From positions 205,408 through 269,407 of the forward strand of contig NZ_JAODIW010000006.1 in assembly GCF_026586625.1 (NCBI RefSeq): 64,000 bases of DNA, given 5' to 3'. The notes under the pieces were generated by a model, which was not told the origin of the DNA, did no database searches, and saw only the letters and a program-made list of their open reading frames with translations. The first letter of the stretch is position 1. Every line of letters begins with the position of its first letter. Positions 242 to 33,537 of the stretch are shown here, in pieces. The position numbers and the translations under genes were made by a program. This stretch comes from Halobium salinum. Lineage in GTDB: Archaea; Halobacteriota; Halobacteria; Halobacteriales; Haloferacaceae.

Positions 242-1579
242 ATGAACCACGAGCGGTCTCGCGACCTCTACGACCGGGCGCTCTCGGTGTTGCCCGGCGG
301 CGTCAACTCGTCGGTGCGTGCGACACAGCCCTACCCGCCGTTCGTCGCCCGCGGCGACGGCGCCCACGTCGTCGACGCCGACGGCAACCGCTACCTCGAC
401 TACGTGATGGGGTACGGTCCCCTTCTCTACGGCCACGACGCTCCGGAGCCGGTGCAGTCGGCCGTCCAGAAGTTCGCGAGCGAGGGGCCCATGTACGGGA
501 TGCCGACGGAGGTCGAGGTCGAACACGCCGAGTTCGTCGCCCGGCACGTCCCGAGCGTCGAGATGATTCGCTTCGTCAACTCCGGGACGGAGGCCACCGT
601 CTCCGCCGTCCGCCTCGCCCGCGGGTACACCGGTCGGGACAAAATCGTCGTCATGCAGGGGGGCTACCACGGCGCCCAGGAGTCCACGCTCGTCGCCGGC
701 GGCCCCGAGAACCCCCGGCCCTCCACCCCCGGCATCCCGCCGGAGTTCGCGAAACACACCCTCCCGATTCCGTTCAACGACCCCGCCGCCGCGGAGGCCG
801 TCTTCGAGGAGCACGGCGACGACATCGCCGCGGTGCTCGTCGAGCCCATCCTCGCGAACAAGGGTATCGTGATGCCCGTCGACGGCTACCACCAACGGCT
901 CCGCGAACTGTGTGACGACCACGGGTCGCTGCTCGTGTTCGACGAGGTCATCACCGGCTTCCGGGTCGGCGGCCTCGGCTGTGCCCAGTCGACGTTCGGC
1001 GTCACCCCCGACGTGACCACGTTCGGGAAGATTATCGGCGGCGGCTTCCCGGTGGGTGCCATCGGCGGAAAGGCCGAGATTATCGAGCGGTTCACTCCCG
1101 CCGGCGACGTGTTCCAGTCGGGCACCTTCTCGGGACATCCGGTGACGATGGCCGCCGGCCACGAGTACCTCAAGTTCGCGGCCGAGAACGACGTGTACGA
1201 ACACGTGAACCGCCTCGGTCGCCGCCTCCGTGAGGGAGTCGAGGACCTGCTCGAGGACCGCGCCCCCGAGTACACCGTCGTCGGCACCGACTCGATGTTC
1301 AAGACGGTGTTCACCCGCGACGCGCCGGGCAGTTTCGAGGACCACTGCGAGGGCGGCTGTCGCCAGCGCGACTCCTGTCCGCGTTTCGACGCCTGCCCGA
1401 AGACCGGCGCCGACGTGGCCGCCGCCGAGACCGGTCGGTGGGAGCGCATCTTCTGGCAGGAGATGAAAGCACAGGGCGTCCTGCTCACCGCCAACCAGTT
1501 CGAGTCCCAGTTCGTCTCCTACGCCCACACCGACGAGGACATCGAGGAGACGCTGGAGGCGTACAAGACGGCGCTGTAG
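242..1579 (+). CDS. hemL: Glutamate-1-semialdehyde 2,1-aminomutase
   Basis: This 445-aa PLP enzyme converts glutamate-1-semialdehyde to 5-aminolevulinate, the entry step of tetrapyrrole (heme, cobamide) synthesis in the cytoplasm. The N-terminal block ([20 protein letters not shown]) is the family start, which places the initiation codon at 242; the open frame extends upstream but without family similarity. The PLP lysine is K263 in [13 protein letters not shown]. The length is normal for the family except for a Cys-rich insertion near residues 366-390, with Cys at 369, 373, 379 and 385 and two Cys-Pro dipeptides, before the conserved tail [19 protein letters not shown]. It stands alone, with no other heme gene next to it. 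The identification is secure; the role of the cysteines is unknown. Confidence 0.95.
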
Positions 1580-1761
1580 CGGGACCACGCTCCCACTACC
1601 TCCTCTCTCACACACCGACACCCCGTCGTCTCGGGCTTCGCGCCCGTGTTCCGCGACGGCCGACGCGTCGCCGACTGAGAGTCGCTTTTTCCTCGCTCGC
1701 GCCGCGCACTCGACCCCTTTGGACCCCGGAACTTATCGCCGTGGCCGCCGGAACTGGAGCC

Positions 1762-2250
1762 ATGAGCCCTCCATCCCCCGACTCGACGACCGGACCCGGC
1801 GACCCGACGACGACCCGCGAGGGGAACGCCCTCGACGACCTGCTCCCCGAGGCGACCGTCGACTCGAAGTGGTGGTACTGGATCGCCGCCGTCCCGGCGT
1901 ACTTCGTCCTGACGCTGCTGTTCGGCGGGGCCGCCTTCTTCCTGGTTCTCGCCGGCGTCGGAATCGACCTCCTGGGGGGACTGGGCGTCGCCACGTTCGG
2001 TGTGACCGCCCTGCTCGTGGTGTTCGCCTTCCTCGTTGCCCTCCCCGGCCTCCTCCTCGCCGTCCTCTTCCCGGTCGCCATCTACGTCGACGCCCGCGCG
2101 GTCGAACGGGCGGCCCTCGACTGGCGGCCCGACCCGGTCCTGTACGGCCTCGTGGCCGTCGTCGGCGTGGTCGCCACCAACTTCGTCGTGAGCGTCCCGC
2201 TCGCGTGCTACTACCTCTACAAGCGCCACGAGGCCGTCGGGACGCCCTGA
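1762..2250 (+). CDS. Predicted four-helix membrane protein
   Basis: A 162-aa hydrophobic protein that I do not recognise. The first ~35 residues are polar and acidic (SPPSPDSTTG onward). Then come about four membrane segments: near residues 37-65, 67-95, 98-116 and 128-148. A basic/polar loop (DARAVERAALDWRPD) lies before the last helix and a short cytoplasmic-like tail (YLYKRHEAVGTP) follows it. The start at 1762 is chosen because the frame upstream runs through the end of hemL and lacks hydrophobic or conserved character. Function unknown. It lies between hemL and the photolyase on the same strand with gaps of 182 and 70 nt, so it is probably transcribed separately. Confidence 0.7.
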   Translation: MSPPSPDSTTGPGDPTTTREGNALDDLLPEATVDSKWWYWIAAVPAYFVLTLLFGGAAFFLVLAGVGIDLLGGLGVATFGVTALLVVFAFLVALPGLLLAVLFPVAIYVDARAVERAALDWRPDPVLYGLVAVVGVVATNFVVSVPLACYYLYKRHEAVGTP

Positions 2251-2320
2251 GCCGTTCGACGGCGGGCACCGACCACCGACCGGCGTCGGGTTTATTCGCA
2301 CCGAACCCTTGCAACGAGTG

Positions 2321-3910
2321 ATGTCGACCCCATCCTCGGAGCCGTGCGTCCCCTCCATCGAGGCCGTCCCCACGGCGCCGGGGGACGCCTGTGTCCTCTG
2401 GCACCGTCGGGACCTTCGTCTCCCGGACAACCGGGCCGTCGAGTACGCCACGACGACGTACGACGCCGTCTGCCCGCTGTTCGCGTTCGACCCGCGGTTC
2501 TACGGGGCGGACGGACTGGCCTGCGACGCCCGACTCCGGTTTCTCCACGAGTGTCTGACCGACCTCGCCGCCGCCTACGAGGACGTCGGGTCGACGCTCG
2601 TCCTGGGCCACGGCGCCCCGAGCGACGTGCTCGGCACGTTCCTCGACCGCGGCTGGGACGTGGTCGCCAACCGGGAGGTCACGGGACGGTACGGGGAGGA
2701 GCGCGACGAAGCGCTCGAAGGCGCCGGCGTTCGGTTCGTGAGCGACGACGGGATTCGCTACGGCCAGGAGAGCCGAGAGGGGTGGGCGGAGTACGCCGAG
2801 TCGTACTTCGAGGGGGAGGTCAGCCGGCCCCACCCGTCCGGGTTCGGAAGCCACGGGGTCGACACCGACGGCGAGGTCACGGTCGAGGCCGTCGAGCACG
2901 CGTACGACGTCGACCCGTCGAAGCACGAGGTCCCGCAGGGCGGCCGAACGGCCGCACTGGCACGGCTCGACCGGTTTCTGGACGTCATCCACGAGTACCA
3001 GAACCGCATCAGTAGTCCGCTCGGCGCGAAGACCTACGCGAGTCGGCTCTCGGCTCACCTCCGATTCGGCGCGCTCTCGCCCCGCGAGGTGTACCGCGCG
3101 CTCGACGACGCCATCGACTGTGACGGGAAGGAGGCGTTCGTCTCGCGGCTGTACTGGAACCGCCACTACACCCAGAAGCTCGCCGACTGGTCGGGGTGGA
3201 TGGACACCGCCGTCAACCCCGTCTTCGAGGGTTTCTACGCGTCGAACCGCGACGAGGGGCTGATTCGGGCGTGGAAGCGCGGTCGAACCGGGTTCCCGAT
3301 GGTCGACGCCTCGATGCGCTGTCTCCGGCGAACGGGGTGGCTCAACTTCCGGATGCGGGCGATGTGTGCCTCTGTCTTCAGCCTCCTGTTCAAACAGCCG
3401 TGGCAGGTCGGGGCCGACTACATGTACTACCACCTCGTCGACGCGGACCCGGCCATCAACTACACGCAGTGGCAGAGCCAGAGCGGGCTGAAGGGTATCG
3501 GCGCCATCCGCCTCTACAACCCGCGGAAGCAGCTCCGGGACAACGACCCGGAGGGGGAGTTCGTCAAGCGGTGGGTACCGGAACTCGAACCCGTTCCGGT
3601 CGACCACCTCGACCGCCCCGAACGGATGCCGCTGGCGCTCCAGGACGAGGTCGGCGTCGATGTCGGGACGGACTACCCGTACCCCGTCGTCGACTACGAG
3701 CAGGAGCGGCGGGCGGCGCTCGACACCTTCGGCGACCTCCGCGCGGAGGCCGAAGCGGCGTACGCCGACCCGGAGGTGTTCGGGCGGGCCTCGCTGTCCC
3801 CGAAGAGCCGGAAGGTAGTCGAGCGGGCGACCGGAGAGCAGACCGCGGTGACCGACGGGAGTGAGAACGGGCCGACCGGCCAGGCGGGGCTCGACCGCTT
3901 CGCCGAGTGA
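2321..3910 (+). CDS. Cryptochrome/DNA photolyase family flavoprotein
   Basis: A 529-aa photolyase/cryptochrome. The N-terminal Rossmann-like antenna domain starts with VLWHRRDLRLPDNRA (about residues 26-40). The C-terminal half holds the FAD-binding helical domain, with FPMVDASMRCLRRTGWLNFR and RLYNPRKQ blocks followed by DPEGEFVKRWVPEL. The enzyme would use blue light and reduced FAD to split UV-induced pyrimidine dimers, important in sunlit brines. The usual GGWQW-type block near the flavin reads YTQWQSQSG here, so the subclass (CPD photolyase versus cryptochrome-like) cannot be fixed by eye. A TATA-like GTTTATTC at 2290-2297 lies about 27 nt before the ATG, suggesting a leaderless mRNA and supporting the start at 2321. 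Confidence 0.88.
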   Translation: MSTPSSEPCVPSIEAVPTAPGDACVLWHRRDLRLPDNRAVEYATTTYDAVCPLFAFDPRFYGADGLACDARLRFLHECLTDLAAAYEDVGSTLVLGHGAPSDVLGTFLDRGWDVVANREVTGRYGEERDEALEGAGVRFVSDDGIRYGQESREGWAEYAESYFEGEVSRPHPSGFGSHGVDTDGEVTVEAVEHAYDVDPSKHEVPQGGRTAALARLDRFLDVIHEYQNRISSPLGAKTYASRLSAHLRFGALSPREVYRALDDAIDCDGKEAFVSRLYWNRHYTQKLADWSGWMDTAVNPVFEGFYASNRDEGLIRAWKRGRTGFPMVDASMRCLRRTGWLNFRMRAMCASVFSLLFKQPWQVGADYMYYHLVDADPAINYTQWQSQSGLKGIGAIRLYNPRKQLRDNDPEGEFVKRWVPELEPVPVDHLDRPERMPLALQDEVGVDVGTDYPYPVVDYEQERRAALDTFGDLRAEAEAAYADPEVFGRASLSPKSRKVVERATGEQTAVTDGSENGPTGQAGLDRFAE

Positions 3911-3971
3911 CGCCGGTCGTATCCGCTCGCTCCCGGTCGGCTCCAACTCGAACCGGGTCGCCCCTCCTTTC

Positions 3972-4634
3972 TCACCCTCGGAGATACGGCATCAGCGCGG
4001 CGATGAGCTTGTTCTCGGCCCGACGGAGGTGCTCCTCCGCGGTGCGGCGCTCCACCCCGACGGCCGCGGCGACCTTTTCCGTCGTCGTCCGCCGCGGAAT
4101 CTCGTAGTACCCCTGCTCGACAGCCGTCGTGAGCGTCTCGTGCTGACGGCCCGTCAGTCGGGGGAGCACCTCGTCGAGCGTCAGTAGCGGACCGTCCTGC
4201 GCCACGGAGCCGACCTCGCGCTTGGACTCGACGTCCACCGAGAACCCGTCTGTGACGAGGTCGCGGTAGCAGGCGGTGAGCGACGCCGGGTCGAGCGCGA
4301 GCAGTCGACAGACCTTCGCGCCACGGGCGTAGCGAAGCGGCGGGAGCAACAGCGGTCCGTGACGGTCGAGGTACGCCTCCACCGTCCCCGTCTCGTGCTC
4401 GCGGAGGCAGTCGTCGGTGACGACGACCAACTCGTCGCCCCCTCGGAGGCGGTCGCGGACGCCGACGCGCTCGCGAACCGCCGCGAGCACGGCGTCCTCG
4501 GCCGCCTCGTCGCCGCCGGTGACGTGGAGGAGGTCGCAGTGGTCGTTACACCACAGCTCGATGCGGGCGTCGGTGCCGGCGGTCGCAGCCGCGTACGCCC
4601 CGTCGCTCGCGATGCGGAACGTCGCCTCGTACAT
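3972..4634 (-). CDS. HTH-10 (bat-like) transcriptional regulator, divergent to the hut operon
   Basis: A 220-aa haloarchaeal regulator. The C-terminal ~55 residues are a classic HTH-10 domain (LTGRQHETLTTAVEQGYYEI, then a TTTEKVAAAVGV recognition region and LRRAENKL). The N-terminal ~150 residues form an uncharacterised sensor-like module (IELWCNDHCDLLHVTGG); no PAS or GAF motif is obvious. The ATG at 4634 is favoured because a TATA-like element (TTTATG on this strand, around 4658-4663) lies ~27 nt upstream, which would give a leaderless mRNA. It is divergent from hutU with 86 nt between the starts, so a role in controlling the hut operon and itself is likely but inferred from position only. 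Confidence 0.85.
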   Translation of the reverse strand: MYEATFRIASDGAYAAATAGTDARIELWCNDHCDLLHVTGGDEAAEDAVLAAVRERVGVRDRLRGGDELVVVTDDCLREHETGTVEAYLDRHGPLLLPPLRYARGAKVCRLLALDPASLTACYRDLVTDGFSVDVESKREVGSVAQDGPLLTLDEVLPRLTGRQHETLTTAVEQGYYEIPRRTTTEKVAAAVGVERRTAEEHLRRAENKLIAALMPYLRG

Positions 4635-27212: not shown

Positions 27213-28886
27213 ATGGCAGACGACGAGCCAACCACCAGTCGACGGACGTTCCTGAAGTTCGCCGGCGGCACGACGGCCGCCGCGGCGGTCGCCGGCTGTG
27301 CCGGCGGCGACCAAGGCGGCGCACAGGAGACGACGACCGGCGCCGAGACGACGACCGGCGCCGAGACGACGACCGCCGGCAACGAGACCACGGGCTCCGA
27401 GGAGACGACCAGCGGCGGCGAGGCCTCCCGCGAGGCCCTCCTCCAGCAGGCGAACCAGCTGCTGCACGACCAGGCGCCGTGGGTGTTCCTCAACCGTCAG
27501 TACAGCGTCTACGGGGTGAGTTCGAACGTCGAGTGGACCGGCCGGCGGGACGAGCGCATCGACGGCTACGCCATCCAGCCGCAGGGTGACTCCTCGGAGG
27601 TGACCATCACGCAGAGCCAGATGGACTCCGGGCTCGACCCGCACGACCACCGGGAGACGCCGACCGACAACATCGTGCTCCAGGCGTACGAGGGCGTGCT
27701 CGCCCGCGACGCGGAGGGGAAGGTCATCAATCAACTCGCCACCGACTACCAGCGCGTCGAGGACGGCGTGGTGGAGTTCACGCTCCAGGACGGCGTCACG
27801 TTCCACGAGGGCGGGGACCTGACCGCGGAGGACGTCGCGTTCAGCATCAACCGCATCGTGCAGGAGGACGTCGGGGGGCTCGCGAGCCCGCAGAGCGACC
27901 AGTTGGCGGGGGTCACGGGCGCGGAAGCGCCCGATGACTCGACGGTCCGGGTGATGTCCGACGGCATCAACCCCACCGTCTTCGCGGTGTTCGCGACCTA
28001 CTGCGACGTGATGAAGCGGTCGTGGGTCGAGGAGAACGACGGCGCGTACATCAACACCCACATGAACGGCACCGGCCCGTTCAGACTGGCGAACTACCAG
28101 GAGGGCGTGGAGGTCGTCTACGAACGCAACGAGGAGTACTGGGGCGACCCGGCGCCGGCACAGGGGCTGACCATCAAGTCCGCCAGCGAGTCGAGCACGC
28201 GCGTCAACCAGCTGTTGAGCGGCGAGACCGACATCGCGGTCAACGTCCCGCCACAGGACGTCAACCGCGTCCGTAACGCGGACAACGCGTCGCTCACCGC
28301 GGTGCCGAGCACGCGCGTCCTGTTCAACGCGATGCGTTACGACGTGGAGCCGTTCTCCAGCCAGCAGTTCCGCCAGGCGATGAACCTCGCCATCGACCTG
28401 GACAGCATCATCGAGAACGTCCTCCAGGGGTTCGCGGCGCCGACCGGCCAGCCCACCCTGGAAGGGTTCGTCGGCTACAACCCGGACGTGAACCCGTACC
28501 CGCAGGACGTCGAACGCGCCCAACAGCTCGTCGAGGAGAGCGGCCACGCCGGCGTCTCCATCACCCTCCAGACGCCGGTCGGGCGCTACCTGAAGGACGT
28601 CGAAATCGCCCAGGCGGTCGCGAACCAGATAAACCAGCTGTCGAACGTCAACTGCGAACTCGAACAGCGCGAGTTCCAGGCGCTGGTCGGCGAGATAACG
28701 ACCGGCAACATCGAGGACAAGCCGCCGTTCTACCTCATCGGCTGGGGGAACGCCACCTTCGACGCCTCACAGACCATCATCCCGCTGGTGACCACCGGCG
28801 GCGCGCTGACCACCTTCGAGAACGAGCAGGTGGACCAGCTCATGGAGCGGGCCCAGAGCATGGGCGGCGAGCCGAACGGTAACTAG
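27213..28886 (+). CDS. Dipeptide/oligopeptide ABC transporter solute-binding lipoprotein, circularly permuted
   Basis: A 557-aa family-5 extracytoplasmic binding protein. A twin-arginine signal (RRTFLK, residues 10-15) and lipobox Cys29 anchor it outside the membrane. A Thr/Glu/Gly-rich linker runs to about residue 70. Residues ~72-123 (REALLQQANQLLHDQAPWVF then a VYG...RRDERIDGYAI stretch) match the normal C-terminal end of DppA/OppA-type proteins. Only from ~128 (SEVTITQSQMDSGLDPHD) does the normal N-terminal lobe begin, and the protein ends at NEQVDQLMERAQSM, exactly where the C-terminal segment should follow. All segments are present once, so this is a circular permutation rather than a truncation. 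First gene of the operon; the substrate is inferred from the permeases. Confidence 0.88.
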   Translation: MADDEPTTSRRTFLKFAGGTTAAAAVAGCAGGDQGGAQETTTGAETTTGAETTTAGNETTGSEETTSGGEASREALLQQANQLLHDQAPWVFLNRQYSVYGVSSNVEWTGRRDERIDGYAIQPQGDSSEVTITQSQMDSGLDPHDHRETPTDNIVLQAYEGVLARDAEGKVINQLATDYQRVEDGVVEFTLQDGVTFHEGGDLTAEDVAFSINRIVQEDVGGLASPQSDQLAGVTGAEAPDDSTVRVMSDGINPTVFAVFATYCDVMKRSWVEENDGAYINTHMNGTGPFRLANYQEGVEVVYERNEEYWGDPAPAQGLTIKSASESSTRVNQLLSGETDIAVNVPPQDVNRVRNADNASLTAVPSTRVLFNAMRYDVEPFSSQQFRQAMNLAIDLDSIIENVLQGFAAPTGQPTLEGFVGYNPDVNPYPQDVERAQQLVEESGHAGVSITLQTPVGRYLKDVEIAQAVANQINQLSNVNCELEQREFQALVGEITTGNIEDKPPFYLIGWGNATFDASQTIIPLVTTGGALTTFENEQVDQLMERAQSMGGEPNGN

Positions 28887-28891
28887 CGCGG

Positions 28892-29878
28892 ATGTCGCTG
28901 GCTCGTTTCCTCCTCAAACGGGGGCTCCAGGGGGTGTTCGTCGTCTGGGGGGTCGTCACCGTGGTGTTCCTGCTGCGGTTCATCACGCCCGGTGACCCCA
29001 TCAGTGTCATCGCTCCCCTGGACGCCAGCCCGGCCACCCGGCAGGCCATCGCCGCGGAACTCGGGCTGAACCGGCCGCTGTACGTCCAGTACCTGGACTA
29101 CCTCGTCGGGCTGTTGCAGGGTGACATGGGGTACTCCTACATCTCGAACACGTCGGCGAGCGCGCGGGTGTTCGCCCGGCTCCCGGCGACGCTCGAACTC
29201 GCCGTCGCGGCGACCCTCGTCGCGGTCGTCCTCTCCATCCCGCTCGGGGTGCTCAGCGCGACCAACCGCAACGAGCCGGTGGACTACGGTGCGACCACCT
29301 TCTCGCTGGTCGGTATCAGCACGCCCAACTTCTGGCTGGGCATCATGCTCGTGCTCCTCTTTGCCGTCGAGTTCGGCGTGTTCAAGACGAGCGGCCGCGG
29401 AATCACCTCGGCGCGGGCGCTCTCTGCCCTCGCGACGGGGAACCTCGACGTGTTCGTCTCCTGGCTGACCTACATCACGCTCCCGGCGATAACGCTGGGG
29501 ACGTACTTCACGGCGCTCATCACGCGGCTCACGCGCAGCGGGATGCTCGATGAACTCGGCTCGGCGTACGTCCGCGCGACGCGGGCGAAGGGACTGCCCG
29601 AGACGCTCGTGCGTTACCGCCACGCGCTCCGCAACACGCTCATCCCCGTCGTCACCGTCCTCGGCCTCCAGTTGGGGACGCTCATCGGCGGCGCGGTCAT
29701 CACGGAGGCGGTGTTCGCGTGGCCCGGGCTCGGGACGCTGGTCATCAACAGCATCACCGGCCGCGACTGGGTCGTGTTGCAGGGGAGCCTCATCGTCATC
29801 GGCGTCGGCTTCGTGCTCATCAACCTCGTCGTCGACGCGCTGTACGCGTACCTCGACCCGCGGGTGGTGAGTGACTGA
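28892..29878 (+). CDS. dppB: Peptide ABC transporter permease (DppB type)
   Basis: A 328-aa inner-membrane permease. The N-terminal helix (FLLKRGLQGVFVVWGVVTVV) is followed by the typical FITPGDPI loop and five more helices. The cytoplasmic EAA-loop region reads YVRATRAKGLPETLVRYRHA, the coupling site for the ATPases. Six helices and length are normal. It starts 6 nt after the binding-protein gene and its stop overlaps the ATG of the next permease. Confidence 0.94.
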   Translation: MSLARFLLKRGLQGVFVVWGVVTVVFLLRFITPGDPISVIAPLDASPATRQAIAAELGLNRPLYVQYLDYLVGLLQGDMGYSYISNTSASARVFARLPATLELAVAATLVAVVLSIPLGVLSATNRNEPVDYGATTFSLVGISTPNFWLGIMLVLLFAVEFGVFKTSGRGITSARALSALATGNLDVFVSWLTYITLPAITLGTYFTALITRLTRSGMLDELGSAYVRATRAKGLPETLVRYRHALRNTLIPVVTVLGLQLGTLIGGAVITEAVFAWPGLGTLVINSITGRDWVVLQGSLIVIGVGFVLINLVVDALYAYLDPRVVSD

Positions 29879-30894
29879 TGCTGTCGCCACGCAGCCTGCG
29901 GAACCTCAAGCGCGAACTCTCCCGGAGCGCGTTGGCGAAGACGGGCATCGCGCTCGTCGTGCTCGTCGTCGGCGTCGCCGCCCTCGCGCCGCTCGTCGCG
30001 CCGCACGACCCGACCGCACAGAACCTCGACGACGCACAGCTCCCGCCGCTCGGGTTCAGCGAGACCGAGAACTCGACGACGACGGAGGTGGTCGACGGGG
30101 AGGTCCAAATCGTCAACGAGACGACGACCATCAACGCGACCGCCGAGCACCCGCTCGGAACGGACTCGCTCGGCCGCGACATGCTTTCGCGGGTCGTCTA
30201 CGGCGCCCGCACCTCCCTGCTCGTCGGCGTGCTCGGGACGTTCATCGCCGGCGGCATCGGCGTCACCGTCGGGCTTGTCGCCGGCTACTACCGCGGCCGC
30301 GTCGACGACGCGCTGATGCGAAGCGCCGACGTGATGCTCGCGTTCCCGTCGCTCGTGCTCGCCATCGCCCTCGTCGGGCTCTGGGGTCGGGCGGCGTACC
30401 GGATACCCGACCCGTTCGTCCTCCTCGGTATCACCCCGGACATGCCCGCCTCGTTCGTGTTGCCCGGCACCGTCGTCGTCGTCGTCGGCCTCGTCAACTG
30501 GGTGTGGTTCGCTCGCGTCGCCCGCGGCGAGGCGCTGTCCATCCGCGAACAGGAGTACGTGAAGGCCGCCCGCGCCGTCGGTGCGAGCGACGCCCGCATC
30601 ATCGCCCGGCACGTGCTCCCGAACGCGTTGACGCCCATCCTCGTGCTCGGGACGATTCAGATAGCCGCCATCGTGCTCTTAGAGAGCGCGCTCTCCTTCC
30701 TCGGCTTCTCGGGGACGACGCTCTCTTGGGGGTTCGACATCGCACAGGGGCGTGACTACCTCGCCTCCGCGTGGTGGATATCGACGATTCCGGGCGTCGC
30801 CATCGTGCTGGCCGTCATCGGCATCAACCTCGTCGGTGACTGGTTACGGGACGCGCTCGACCCCGACATCGAGGGCGAAGGAGGTGGCGTATGA
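29878..30894 (+). CDS. dppC: Peptide ABC transporter permease (DppC type)
   Basis: A 338-aa permease. N-terminal helix ALAKTGIALVVLVVGVAALA, then APHDPTAQNL and the family block HPLGTDSLGRDMLSRVVYGA. The outer loop between these is about 35 residues longer than in bacterial DppC and carries several Asn-X-Ser/Thr sequons (NST, NET, NAT), possible glycosylation sites. EAA loop: YVKAARAVGASDARIIARHV. It overlaps dppB by 1 nt and dppD by 4 nt, so the permeases and ATPases are translationally coupled. Confidence 0.94.
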   Translation: MLSPRSLRNLKRELSRSALAKTGIALVVLVVGVAALAPLVAPHDPTAQNLDDAQLPPLGFSETENSTTTEVVDGEVQIVNETTTINATAEHPLGTDSLGRDMLSRVVYGARTSLLVGVLGTFIAGGIGVTVGLVAGYYRGRVDDALMRSADVMLAFPSLVLAIALVGLWGRAAYRIPDPFVLLGITPDMPASFVLPGTVVVVVGLVNWVWFARVARGEALSIREQEYVKAARAVGASDARIIARHVLPNALTPILVLGTIQIAAIVLLESALSFLGFSGTTLSWGFDIAQGRDYLASAWWISTIPGVAIVLAVIGINLVGDWLRDALDPDIEGEGGGV

Positions 30895-32156
30895 GCGACT
30901 CACAGCGCGACGTGTTGCGAGTCCGCGACCTCTCCACCCGCTTCTTCACCGAGGAGGGGCAGGTGAACGCCGTCGAGGGCGTGAGCTTCGACGTCCGCGA
31001 CGGCGAGGTGTACGGCATCGTCGGCGAGTCCGGCTCCGGGAAGTCGGTGACGGCGCTGTCGGTCATCGACCTCGTCGCCTCGCCGGGGAAGATAACGTCC
31101 GGCGAGGTGTGGTACCGGAACCCGGACCTCGCCGAGGAGTTCAGAGCGGAGCGTCCGGACGCCGTCAGAGACGAGTTCGTCGACCTCCGGCGGCTCCCGA
31201 AGGGGGTCCGGCGCTCGCTTCGCGGCCCCGGCTTCAGCACCGTGTTCCAGGACCCGATGTCGAGTCTGAACCCCTCGCTCACCGTCGGCGAGCAGATAGC
31301 CGAGGCCGTCGAGGTCCAGCGCCGCGCCCGGGCGAACCCCCGGAGCACCCGCTCGCGAACGCAGGGGTACGGGCTCGGGAAGTTCCTCGTCGACAGCCTC
31401 GTACCCGGCCGTGACTACACCGGCGAAGAGAGCCACGAGCGAGCCATCGAACTGTTGGACCAGGTCGGCATTCCCGACCCGGCCCAGCGCGCCCAGGAGT
31501 ACCCTCACCAGTTCTCCGGCGGGATGCTCCAGCGGGCGATGATCGCCCAGGCGCTCGCCGGGGAGCCGGACGTACTCATCGCCGACGAGCCGACGACGGC
31601 GCTCGACGTGACCATCCAGGCACAGATTCTCAACCTCCTGCGGGACCTCCAGCAGGAGGAGGACATGAGCGTCGTGCTCATCACCCACGACCTCGGGGTC
31701 ATCGCCCGGATGTGCTCGCGCGTCGGCGTGATGTACGCCGGCCAGATGGTCGAGCGCGGGTCGCTCTCGGACGTGTTCGACGACCCCGTCCACCCCTACA
31801 CCCAGGGGCTGCTCGGTTCGATTCCCGACCTGGAGAACCCGGCACCGCGCCTCCAACCCATCGAAGGGAACGTCCCCAGCCTGCTCGACAGCGAGATGGG
31901 CGGGCGCTGTTACTTCGCCGACCGCTGTCCGAAAGCCATGGAATCCTGTCTCCACCCCATCGAGATGCATGACGCGGACGCCGGCAGCGACGAACACGAG
32001 GCACGCTGTGTCCTCACCGAGACCGACTACCGGCCGGAGGAGGCCCTGCCCGAGGGGTACTTCGACGGCGGCGACGGTGACGGCGGTGGCGGCGGGCGGG
32101 AGACCGACGGAAGCGACCCCGAGGCTCGTGAAGAGGAGGTGCGCGCCGATGACTGA
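30891..32156 (+). CDS. dppD: Peptide ABC transporter ATPase (DppD type)
   Basis: A 421-aa ATPase: Walker [10 protein letters not shown]-loop [17 protein letters not shown], signature [15 protein letters not shown], Walker [13 protein letters not shown] and switch His in LITHDLGV. The C-terminal oligopeptide-transporter tail has the normal cysteine pattern ([15 protein letters not shown] ... RC) thought to hold an Fe-S cluster. A helical insertion ([20 protein letters not shown]) lies before the signature. The last ~45 residues are Gly/Asp-rich. It overlaps the second ATPase gene by 8 nt. Confidence 0.94.
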
Positions 32157-33537
32157 CGATTCGGGTCGACGCGCCGGAAACGGCGCGAGCGACGCCCCGT
32201 TGCTCGCGGTCGACGACTTGGAGAAGTACTACTACGAGCGGGACACGCTCGTCGACACCCTCCTCCGCCGCGAGAGGCAGAGCGTGAAGGCGGTCGACGG
32301 CGTCTCCTTCGACATCGAACGCGGGGAAACGCTCGGACTGGTCGGCGAGTCCGGCTGTGGGAAGTCGACGACCGGCGAGACCCTGCTCCGACTTCGCGAG
32401 GCCACGGGTGGCTCCGTCGCGTTCGACGGGGAGGACCTGCTCGCGATGGACGACGACGCGATGACCCGGTTCCGTCGACGCGCCCAAATCGTGTTCCAGG
32501 ACCCGTTCTCCAGTCTCAACCCGCGGATGACGGTCGGACAGATACTCACGGAGCCGATGGCCGTCCACGGGCTCCCGGAGAACCCTGAGGGCGGGTCGAA
32601 GGCCGACGCTCGCGAGGCGCGGGCGAAGGAGCTACTCGAGCGTGTCGGTCTCTCGGCCGACCAGTACGAACGCTACCCGCACGAGTTCTCCGGGGGGCAG
32701 CGCCAGCGCGTCGGTATCGCCCGCGCGCTGATGCTCGAACCGGAGTTCGTCGTGCTCGACGAACCCGTCTCGGCGCTCGACGTCTCGGTGCAGGCACAGG
32801 TGTTGAACCTGCTCGACGACCTGCAGGAGGAGTTCGGGTTGACGTACCTCTTCATCGCCCACGACCTCTCCGTGGTGCGACACATCTGCGACCGGGTCGC
32901 CGTGATGTATCTCGGCGACGTGGTCGAACTCGGACCGACGGACGAGATATTCGACGACCCGAAACACCCCTACACGGAGGCGCTGTTGGAGAGCGTCCCG
33001 CGGGCGAGCACCGCGGAGCAGGGTCGGCGCGTCGAGGCGCTCTCCGGGGACGTGCCGTCGCCGCGGAACCCGCCGTCGGGCTGTCGGTTCCGCACCCGCT
33101 GTCCGCAGGTCATCCCGCCCGACGGCGTCGACCTCAACCAGCGCACGTACCGCGAGGTGATGGACCTCCGGGACCGTCTCGAACGCGGCGAACTCGACCT
33201 CGACCGGATCTGGGAGGTCGCCGGCGACGAGGGGCAGGCGGACAAGCCGGCGTTCAAGCGGCAGGTCCGTGCGGAGCTGTTCGAGACGGAGCTGTCGGGA
33301 CGCGACGAGGACGTCGTCGAACGCGCGCTCGACCAACTCGCCGAGGGCGACCGGGAGGCGGCCATCGAAACACTCCACGACCGGTACGAGAGCGTCTGCG
33401 AGCGGGTCAGACCGGTGTTGCAGTCGGCGCACCACCCGGCGGCCTGCCATCTGTACGACCAGCCCGACGCCCGGTCGGGGGTCGGCGCCGGCGAGATGAC
33501 GGCGACCGACGGCGACGGGACGGCCGACTCGGACTGA
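32149..33537 (+). CDS. dppF: Peptide ABC transporter ATPase (DppF type) with long C-terminal insertion
   Basis: A 462-aa ATPase: Walker A GESGCGKS, signature [15 protein letters not shown], Walker [13 protein letters not shown], switch His in [10 protein letters not shown]. In DppF relatives the four tail cysteines are closely spaced. Here C312 and C318 (CRFRTRC) are separated from C417 and C433 (AACHLY) by about 98 residues of mostly helical, charged sequence ([20 protein letters not shown] and [20 protein letters not shown]). The catalytic domain is intact. Start 32149 overlaps dppD by 8 nt. Last gene of the operon. Confidence 0.93.

Follow-up and report, generated by a model that had tools for sequence, protein, structure and literature searches.

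A 64,000-nucleotide stretch of Halobium salinum DNA (the window) carries a dppABCDF operon, the first gene of which encodes a 557-residue protein whose segments appear to stand in an unusual order, raising the question of whether this substrate-binding lipoprotein is a natural circular permutant. Export signal, lipoprotein anchor and adjacent ABC partner genes were all found to be present (Table 1). The Tat signal model PF10518 matched residues 8–27 above its own cut-off (TIGR01409 matched as well), and the PF00496 middle domain was recognized at residues 170–530 (E-value of 2.4e-72, 244.6 bits, above cut-off), although none of the NCBIfam equivalog cut-offs was reached. Standard domain annotation is blind to the order of the blocks, because the PF00496 model is limited to the central part of the family. 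The protein putatively captures peptide-like substrates for the adjacent DppBCDF pump.

Canonical members of the family begin with a characteristic start strand (VTIT...) and end with a terminal helix and strand, but the window protein does not follow this order. The original prediction had recognized the pattern that ends DppA/OppA-type proteins at residues ~72–123, and residues 72–122 (block B) indeed match the C-terminal segment of relatives. Furthermore, the canonical beginning, expected at ~128, was placed at about 126–128 (the start of block A), and the chain stops 8 residues past the VDQLMERAQS helix, i.e., at the point where the terminal segment would normally follow. The block measures 51–55 residues, in agreement with the ~55 residues thought to have moved. 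Blocks A and B are thus each present once, in rotated order, and with the old termini joined by a short bridge. As a whole, these and the following data are very likely best explained by a natural circular permutation of a family 5 (DppA/OppA/NikA-type, cluster C) substrate-binding lipoprotein.

Table 1. Features of the predicted binding-protein gene and of the genes downstream of it (positions in the window).
Feature	Position	Strand	Basis
dppA-type substrate-binding lipoprotein of family 5 with permuted blocks, 557 aa	27213..28886	+	ORF with ATG; PF00496; block order
Tat signal (SRRTFLKF) and lipobox ending at Cys29	27213..27299	+	PF10518, TIGR01409; VAGC lipobox by eye
Thr/Glu/Gly-rich, low-complexity tether linker, residues 30–71	27300..27425	+	Read from sequence
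Block B, residues 72–122, helix and strands that are usually C-terminal, here N-terminal	27426..27578	+	Homology; secondary structure
Bridge, residues 123–127, linking the old C terminus to the old N terminus	27579..27593	+	Junction comparison
Block A, residues 128–549, from the canonical N-terminal start to the VDQLMERAQS helix	27594..28859	+	Homology
Tail that forms the new C terminus (MGGEPNGN), with the stop codon, located at the turn that precedes B in canonical relatives	28860..28886	+	Junction comparison
dppB-type permease	28892..29878	+	ORF; operon comparison
dppC-type permease	29878..30894	+	ORF; operon comparison
dppD-type ATPase	30891..32156	+	ORF; operon comparison
dppF-type ATPase	32149..33537	+	ORF from 31969; ATG at 32149 is the likely start, judged from the dppD overlap

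The identity of block B was examined against the other binding proteins of the same genome. The one close paralogue (G000:C11:834674-836113, minus strand; L002, L242) has 607 residues, and gave a match to block A (query residues 124–554, 47% identity) followed by a match to block B (query residues 75–120, 65%). In this paralogue, A occupies residues 129–549 and B residues 559–599, with B reaching 73% identity over 41 residues (E-value of 5e-18), so that by sequence comparison the B match is well above chance. Eight PF00496 proteins are encoded in the genome, and in the four in which a B profile could locate the block, it precedes A in the window protein only and is C-terminal in the others. 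Moreover, re-setting the segments of the window protein to the canonical order improved the scores against full-length family 5 models. For GsiB (NF011942) the score went from 110.7 to 123.7 bits, the profile being covered over 485 instead of 430 of 512 positions, and for the chain 1uqw (E. coli YliB) it increased from 105.4 to 117.7 bits, with both alignments then reaching the C-terminal region. Searching PDB sequences with the B profile retrieved the family 5 C termini weakly (E-values of 0.5–0.8), below two chance-like dehalogenase matches, B being a short block. By homology, then, the window protein is a permuted variant of family 5 and not a canonical member.

An assembly error or a pseudogene is hardly credible as the source of this order, given that the frame is open, that 57 sequences spread over numerous genera (complete chromosomes included) preserve it, that the operon is tight, and that the order recurs in many independently assembled genomes. 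Alternatively, residues 72–122 could form an extra N-terminal domain or an inserted copy instead of a displaced C terminus, a difference to which annotation with the PF00496 "middle" model would be blind. This reading is very improbable, however, since the segment is 65–73% identical to the block that ends the paralogue, and the lack of C-terminal copies of the block contradicts it. None of the permuted relatives carries such a copy, and all of them stop at the same helix. More generally, block B was found at both ends in 0 of the 176 ORFs collected (via BLAST, and via HMM at a loose threshold), which answers the call in the original prediction for a check on relatives that keep a second, C-terminal copy. 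Since the dppB gene starts within a few bases of the stop codon of the binding protein, there is also no room for a residual block B downstream in the window.

Structure prediction points in the same direction. AlphaFold2 (AF2) models were obtained for the window protein (at moderate confidence, with a pLDDT of 79 and pTM of 0.71, and a pLDDT of about 60–70 over part of block B) and for the canonical orthologue L027 (pLDDT of 72 and pTM of 0.58). In both models block B is predicted to consist of a helix, a gap of 3, a 13-residue strand, a gap of 2, a 2-residue strand, a gap of 10, a 3-residue helix, a gap of 1 and a final 2-residue strand, with identical spacings. Since strands as assigned by DSSP require partners, B would be paired into a sheet in either model. 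In the L027 model, helix 417–428 and the B helix (431–448) are two residues apart, and their counterparts in the permuted model are the last (479–490) and the first (14–28) helix, respectively. A model with residues 72–123 as a separate domain would have spoken against the original prediction, but is not borne out, as the B pattern is that of the canonical C-terminal block and B does not look like a separate domain in the model. Foldseek matched both models to family 5 binding proteins, with E-values down to 2.8e-31 and TM-scores of about 0.55–0.71 for the permuted model against family 5 PDB entries. For the same top matches, the permuted model covered fewer columns and generally gave lower TM-scores than the canonical model, which is expected because a sequential aligner must drop 50 residues. 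The overall fold would thus be the normal two-lobed fold of family 5.

Relatives were gathered by searching genome contigs and then family, order and phylum samples, after which block order was assigned by script. From 176 ORFs with a strong A match, both blocks were located in 171, of which 57 were permuted and 114 canonical (counts that contain some sequences twice, from different collections). The five ORFs without a B match at first pass comprised two that were canonical by HMM (L145 and L148), two with a shortened frame (L036 and L186) and one on a partly masked stretch (L039). The search for orthologues with the same order, proposed in the original prediction, hence located 57 permuted relatives, including Halobaculum and Halosimplex (with complete genomes among them) and many other genera, which together span six or more families of the order. 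The canonical type was seen in Halorussus, Halogranum, Salinigranum, Halorubrum and numerous further genera, and in the genus g21 both types are present, in different species. The window's genome was the only one found to hold both forms, its canonical copy being the divergent paralogue. Across the sample of the phylum, every full-length match of the permuted type came from the order to which the window belongs. The suggestion that the trait might be family-wide in haloarchaea and formally undescribed is therefore upheld in part: with a canonical majority (114 vs. 57) it is not family-wide, while an earlier report was not found in open-licence papers.

Permuted and canonical types are closely related, with an identity in block A of up to 73%. 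Orthologues of dppB, dppC, dppD and dppF lie downstream of both types and are mostly 60–80% identical to those of the window, and this identical downstream order indicates that the permuted dppA sits at the orthologous position. By contrast, no dppB/dppC-like genes were found beside the canonical paralogue of the same genome, which stands on a long branch as an orphan binding protein. Likewise, some canonical dppA-type genes in the genomes G061, G235 and G289 (L138, L139, L193 and L189), which hold several dppA-type copies, had no dppB/dppC-like genes downstream in the stretch read.

Comparison of the junctions located the cut. Canonical relatives have a turn of 4–5 residues between the helix that ends A and block B, and the permuted forms are opened inside this turn, with B starting after the tether linker. 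The tail left after A measures 4–10 residues in most permuted relatives and 20–30 in four; in L088–L091 such 20–30-residue tails past the new C terminus are rich in Gly, Ser and Asn. The bridges that join the old termini are short and variable in sequence in all permuted relatives, and the linker from the lipobox Cys to the first block has a median length of 39 residues in the permuted vs. 35 in the canonical forms. Leftover B or A was absent from the DNA flanking permuted genes, except for one A-like fragment downstream of L156 (in G051), a permuted dppA that is apparently broken near its end; the fragment most likely reflects a broken frame in that copy. In another genome (G011), the permuted dppA L058 (minus strand, frame 1402-4146) reads without a stop into dppB, yielding 915 residues (SESNQAVMGYGRFLLK...). 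This fused frame would be topologically odd for an exported lipoprotein, and is explained either by loss of the stop codon or by an error in the sequence.

The close mixture of both forms bears on how often the permutation arose. In a block A tree of 62 representatives, the permuted forms fell in two places, i.e., a main group interspersed, at weakly supported nodes, with two canonical clades, and L160–L163 (100/100), which adjoined the canonical L196. A single clade of all permuted forms was rejected (AU test, p-value of 0.00016), while the main group alone as a clade was not (p-value of 0.32). Without long branches, the single clade was again rejected (p-value of 0.0001) and the grouping of L160–L163 with L196 was supported at 100/98. 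A tree of DppB and DppC, as independent data, also placed L160–L163 with L196 and rejected a single permuted clade (AU p-value of 0.00014). In this tree the main permuted group was itself split (p-value of 0.002), which may reflect further origins or exchange of dppA between operons. Block B by itself did not reject a single origin (AU p-value of 0.43), but is too short to be decisive. A scenario in which recombination supplied L160–L163 with the 5′ part of a main-clade gene was not supported, since L196 is a closer match than the main-group permutants both to their block B and to the stretches at either end of their block A. Since the permuted forms stand apart in both trees, and a single clade is rejected by each, it is likely, though not proven, that the same 4–5-residue turn was opened two or more times independently within haloarchaea.

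A single permutation, spread by descent and transfer, could nevertheless account for the identical cut site and the alike short tails and linkers of both clades, for the tolerance of block B to one origin, and for the genus g55 having permutants of both clades (in different genomes), provided that L160–L163 seem apart merely through fast evolution or recombination. This scenario is unlikely, because block A and DppB+DppC both pair L160–L163 with a canonical relative at p-values of about 0.0001, and because this same relative is the closest one for their block B and the ends of their block A.

With repeated permutation as the preferred reading, each event would have started from a local canonical dppA. 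By sequence, the last about 51 residues (one helix and the strands that follow) now stand behind the tether linker and ahead of the normal fold start, a short bridge connects the old termini, and the new ones lie in the tight turn between two helices. Circular permutation is classically explained by tandem duplication, fusion and trimming, and the route taken here was probably of this kind, with the end of the first copy fused to the start of the second. No duplication intermediate (tandem or double copy) was encountered among the 176 ORFs. As a consequence of the rearrangement, the lipid tether would have shifted from the first strand to a helix-turn-helix of the same lobe. By analogy with the family, the mature protein would be held by lipid at its N-terminal Cys, and its lobes would close on a peptide-like substrate that is then passed to DppBCDF.

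Whether this shift of the tether matters to the cell is a separate issue. The chances are about even that the permutation is selectively neutral, with tether position being irrelevant and the order a frozen accident, and this would be compatible with the protein being a circular permutant. Both forms occur in related genera, at up to 73% identity and in the same operon, and have linkers of similar length, as neutrality would allow; the probable recurrence at the same turn and the long retention, on the other hand, weigh against it. Recurrence and retention may, however, equally reflect a scarcity of sites that tolerate a cut. We therefore only tentatively consider, as the somewhat less probable option, that the permutation recurred at least twice at one turn through selection for relocation of the tether or for exposed termini at the helix pair. 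If true, such selected recurrence would constitute a natural replicate experiment on the fixation of permutations.

A known parallel is TpMglB-2 (Tp0684), a tethered lipoprotein of "Cluster Bc" that binds glucose in Treponema pallidum and is circularly permuted. Where the two align, it is about 26% identical to E. coli MglB, and tethering was proposed as a possible reason for its permutation (PMC4990184). Both TpMglB-2 and the window protein are natural permutants of tethered substrate-binding lipoproteins, but TpMglB-2 is a bacterial Type I (cluster B) protein in which N-terminal strands moved toward the C terminus, i.e., in the opposite direction. The window protein falls outside Cluster Bc, its homology being to family 5 of cluster C and not to the cluster B sugar binders. 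Glycine-betaine-binding and molybdate-binding proteins have also been related by circular permutation via CPSARST (PMC2395249), but share under 24% identity, bind different ligands and lack a close canonical counterpart in the same operon. The E. coli proteins DppA, OppA and GsiB/YliB (1dpe, 1b05 and 1uqw) represent the family and fold of the window protein, as judged from sequence and Foldseek, but carry their segments in canonical order. No report of a natural permutation in family 5 or in haloarchaea was found in the open-licence papers searched.

Natural circular permutations have mostly been inferred between distant proteins. The haloarchaeal dppA genes provide close permuted and canonical orthologues at the same operon position, which would enable direct tests of how a permutation arises, of the effect of tether position, and of the predictability of permutation sites, and they illustrate that domain models built on the middle of a family can miss permutations. 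The canonical orthologues L027 (from Halorussus litoreus), L173 and L165 are PF00496 lipoproteins that share the dppABCDF operon and a similar linker length with the window protein, but have block B at the C terminus, after the 4–5-residue turn, whereas the window protein has it at the N terminus. Compared with the known permuted binding proteins, it is this closeness of permuted and canonical orthologues, together with the probable recurrence of the permutation, that is unusual.
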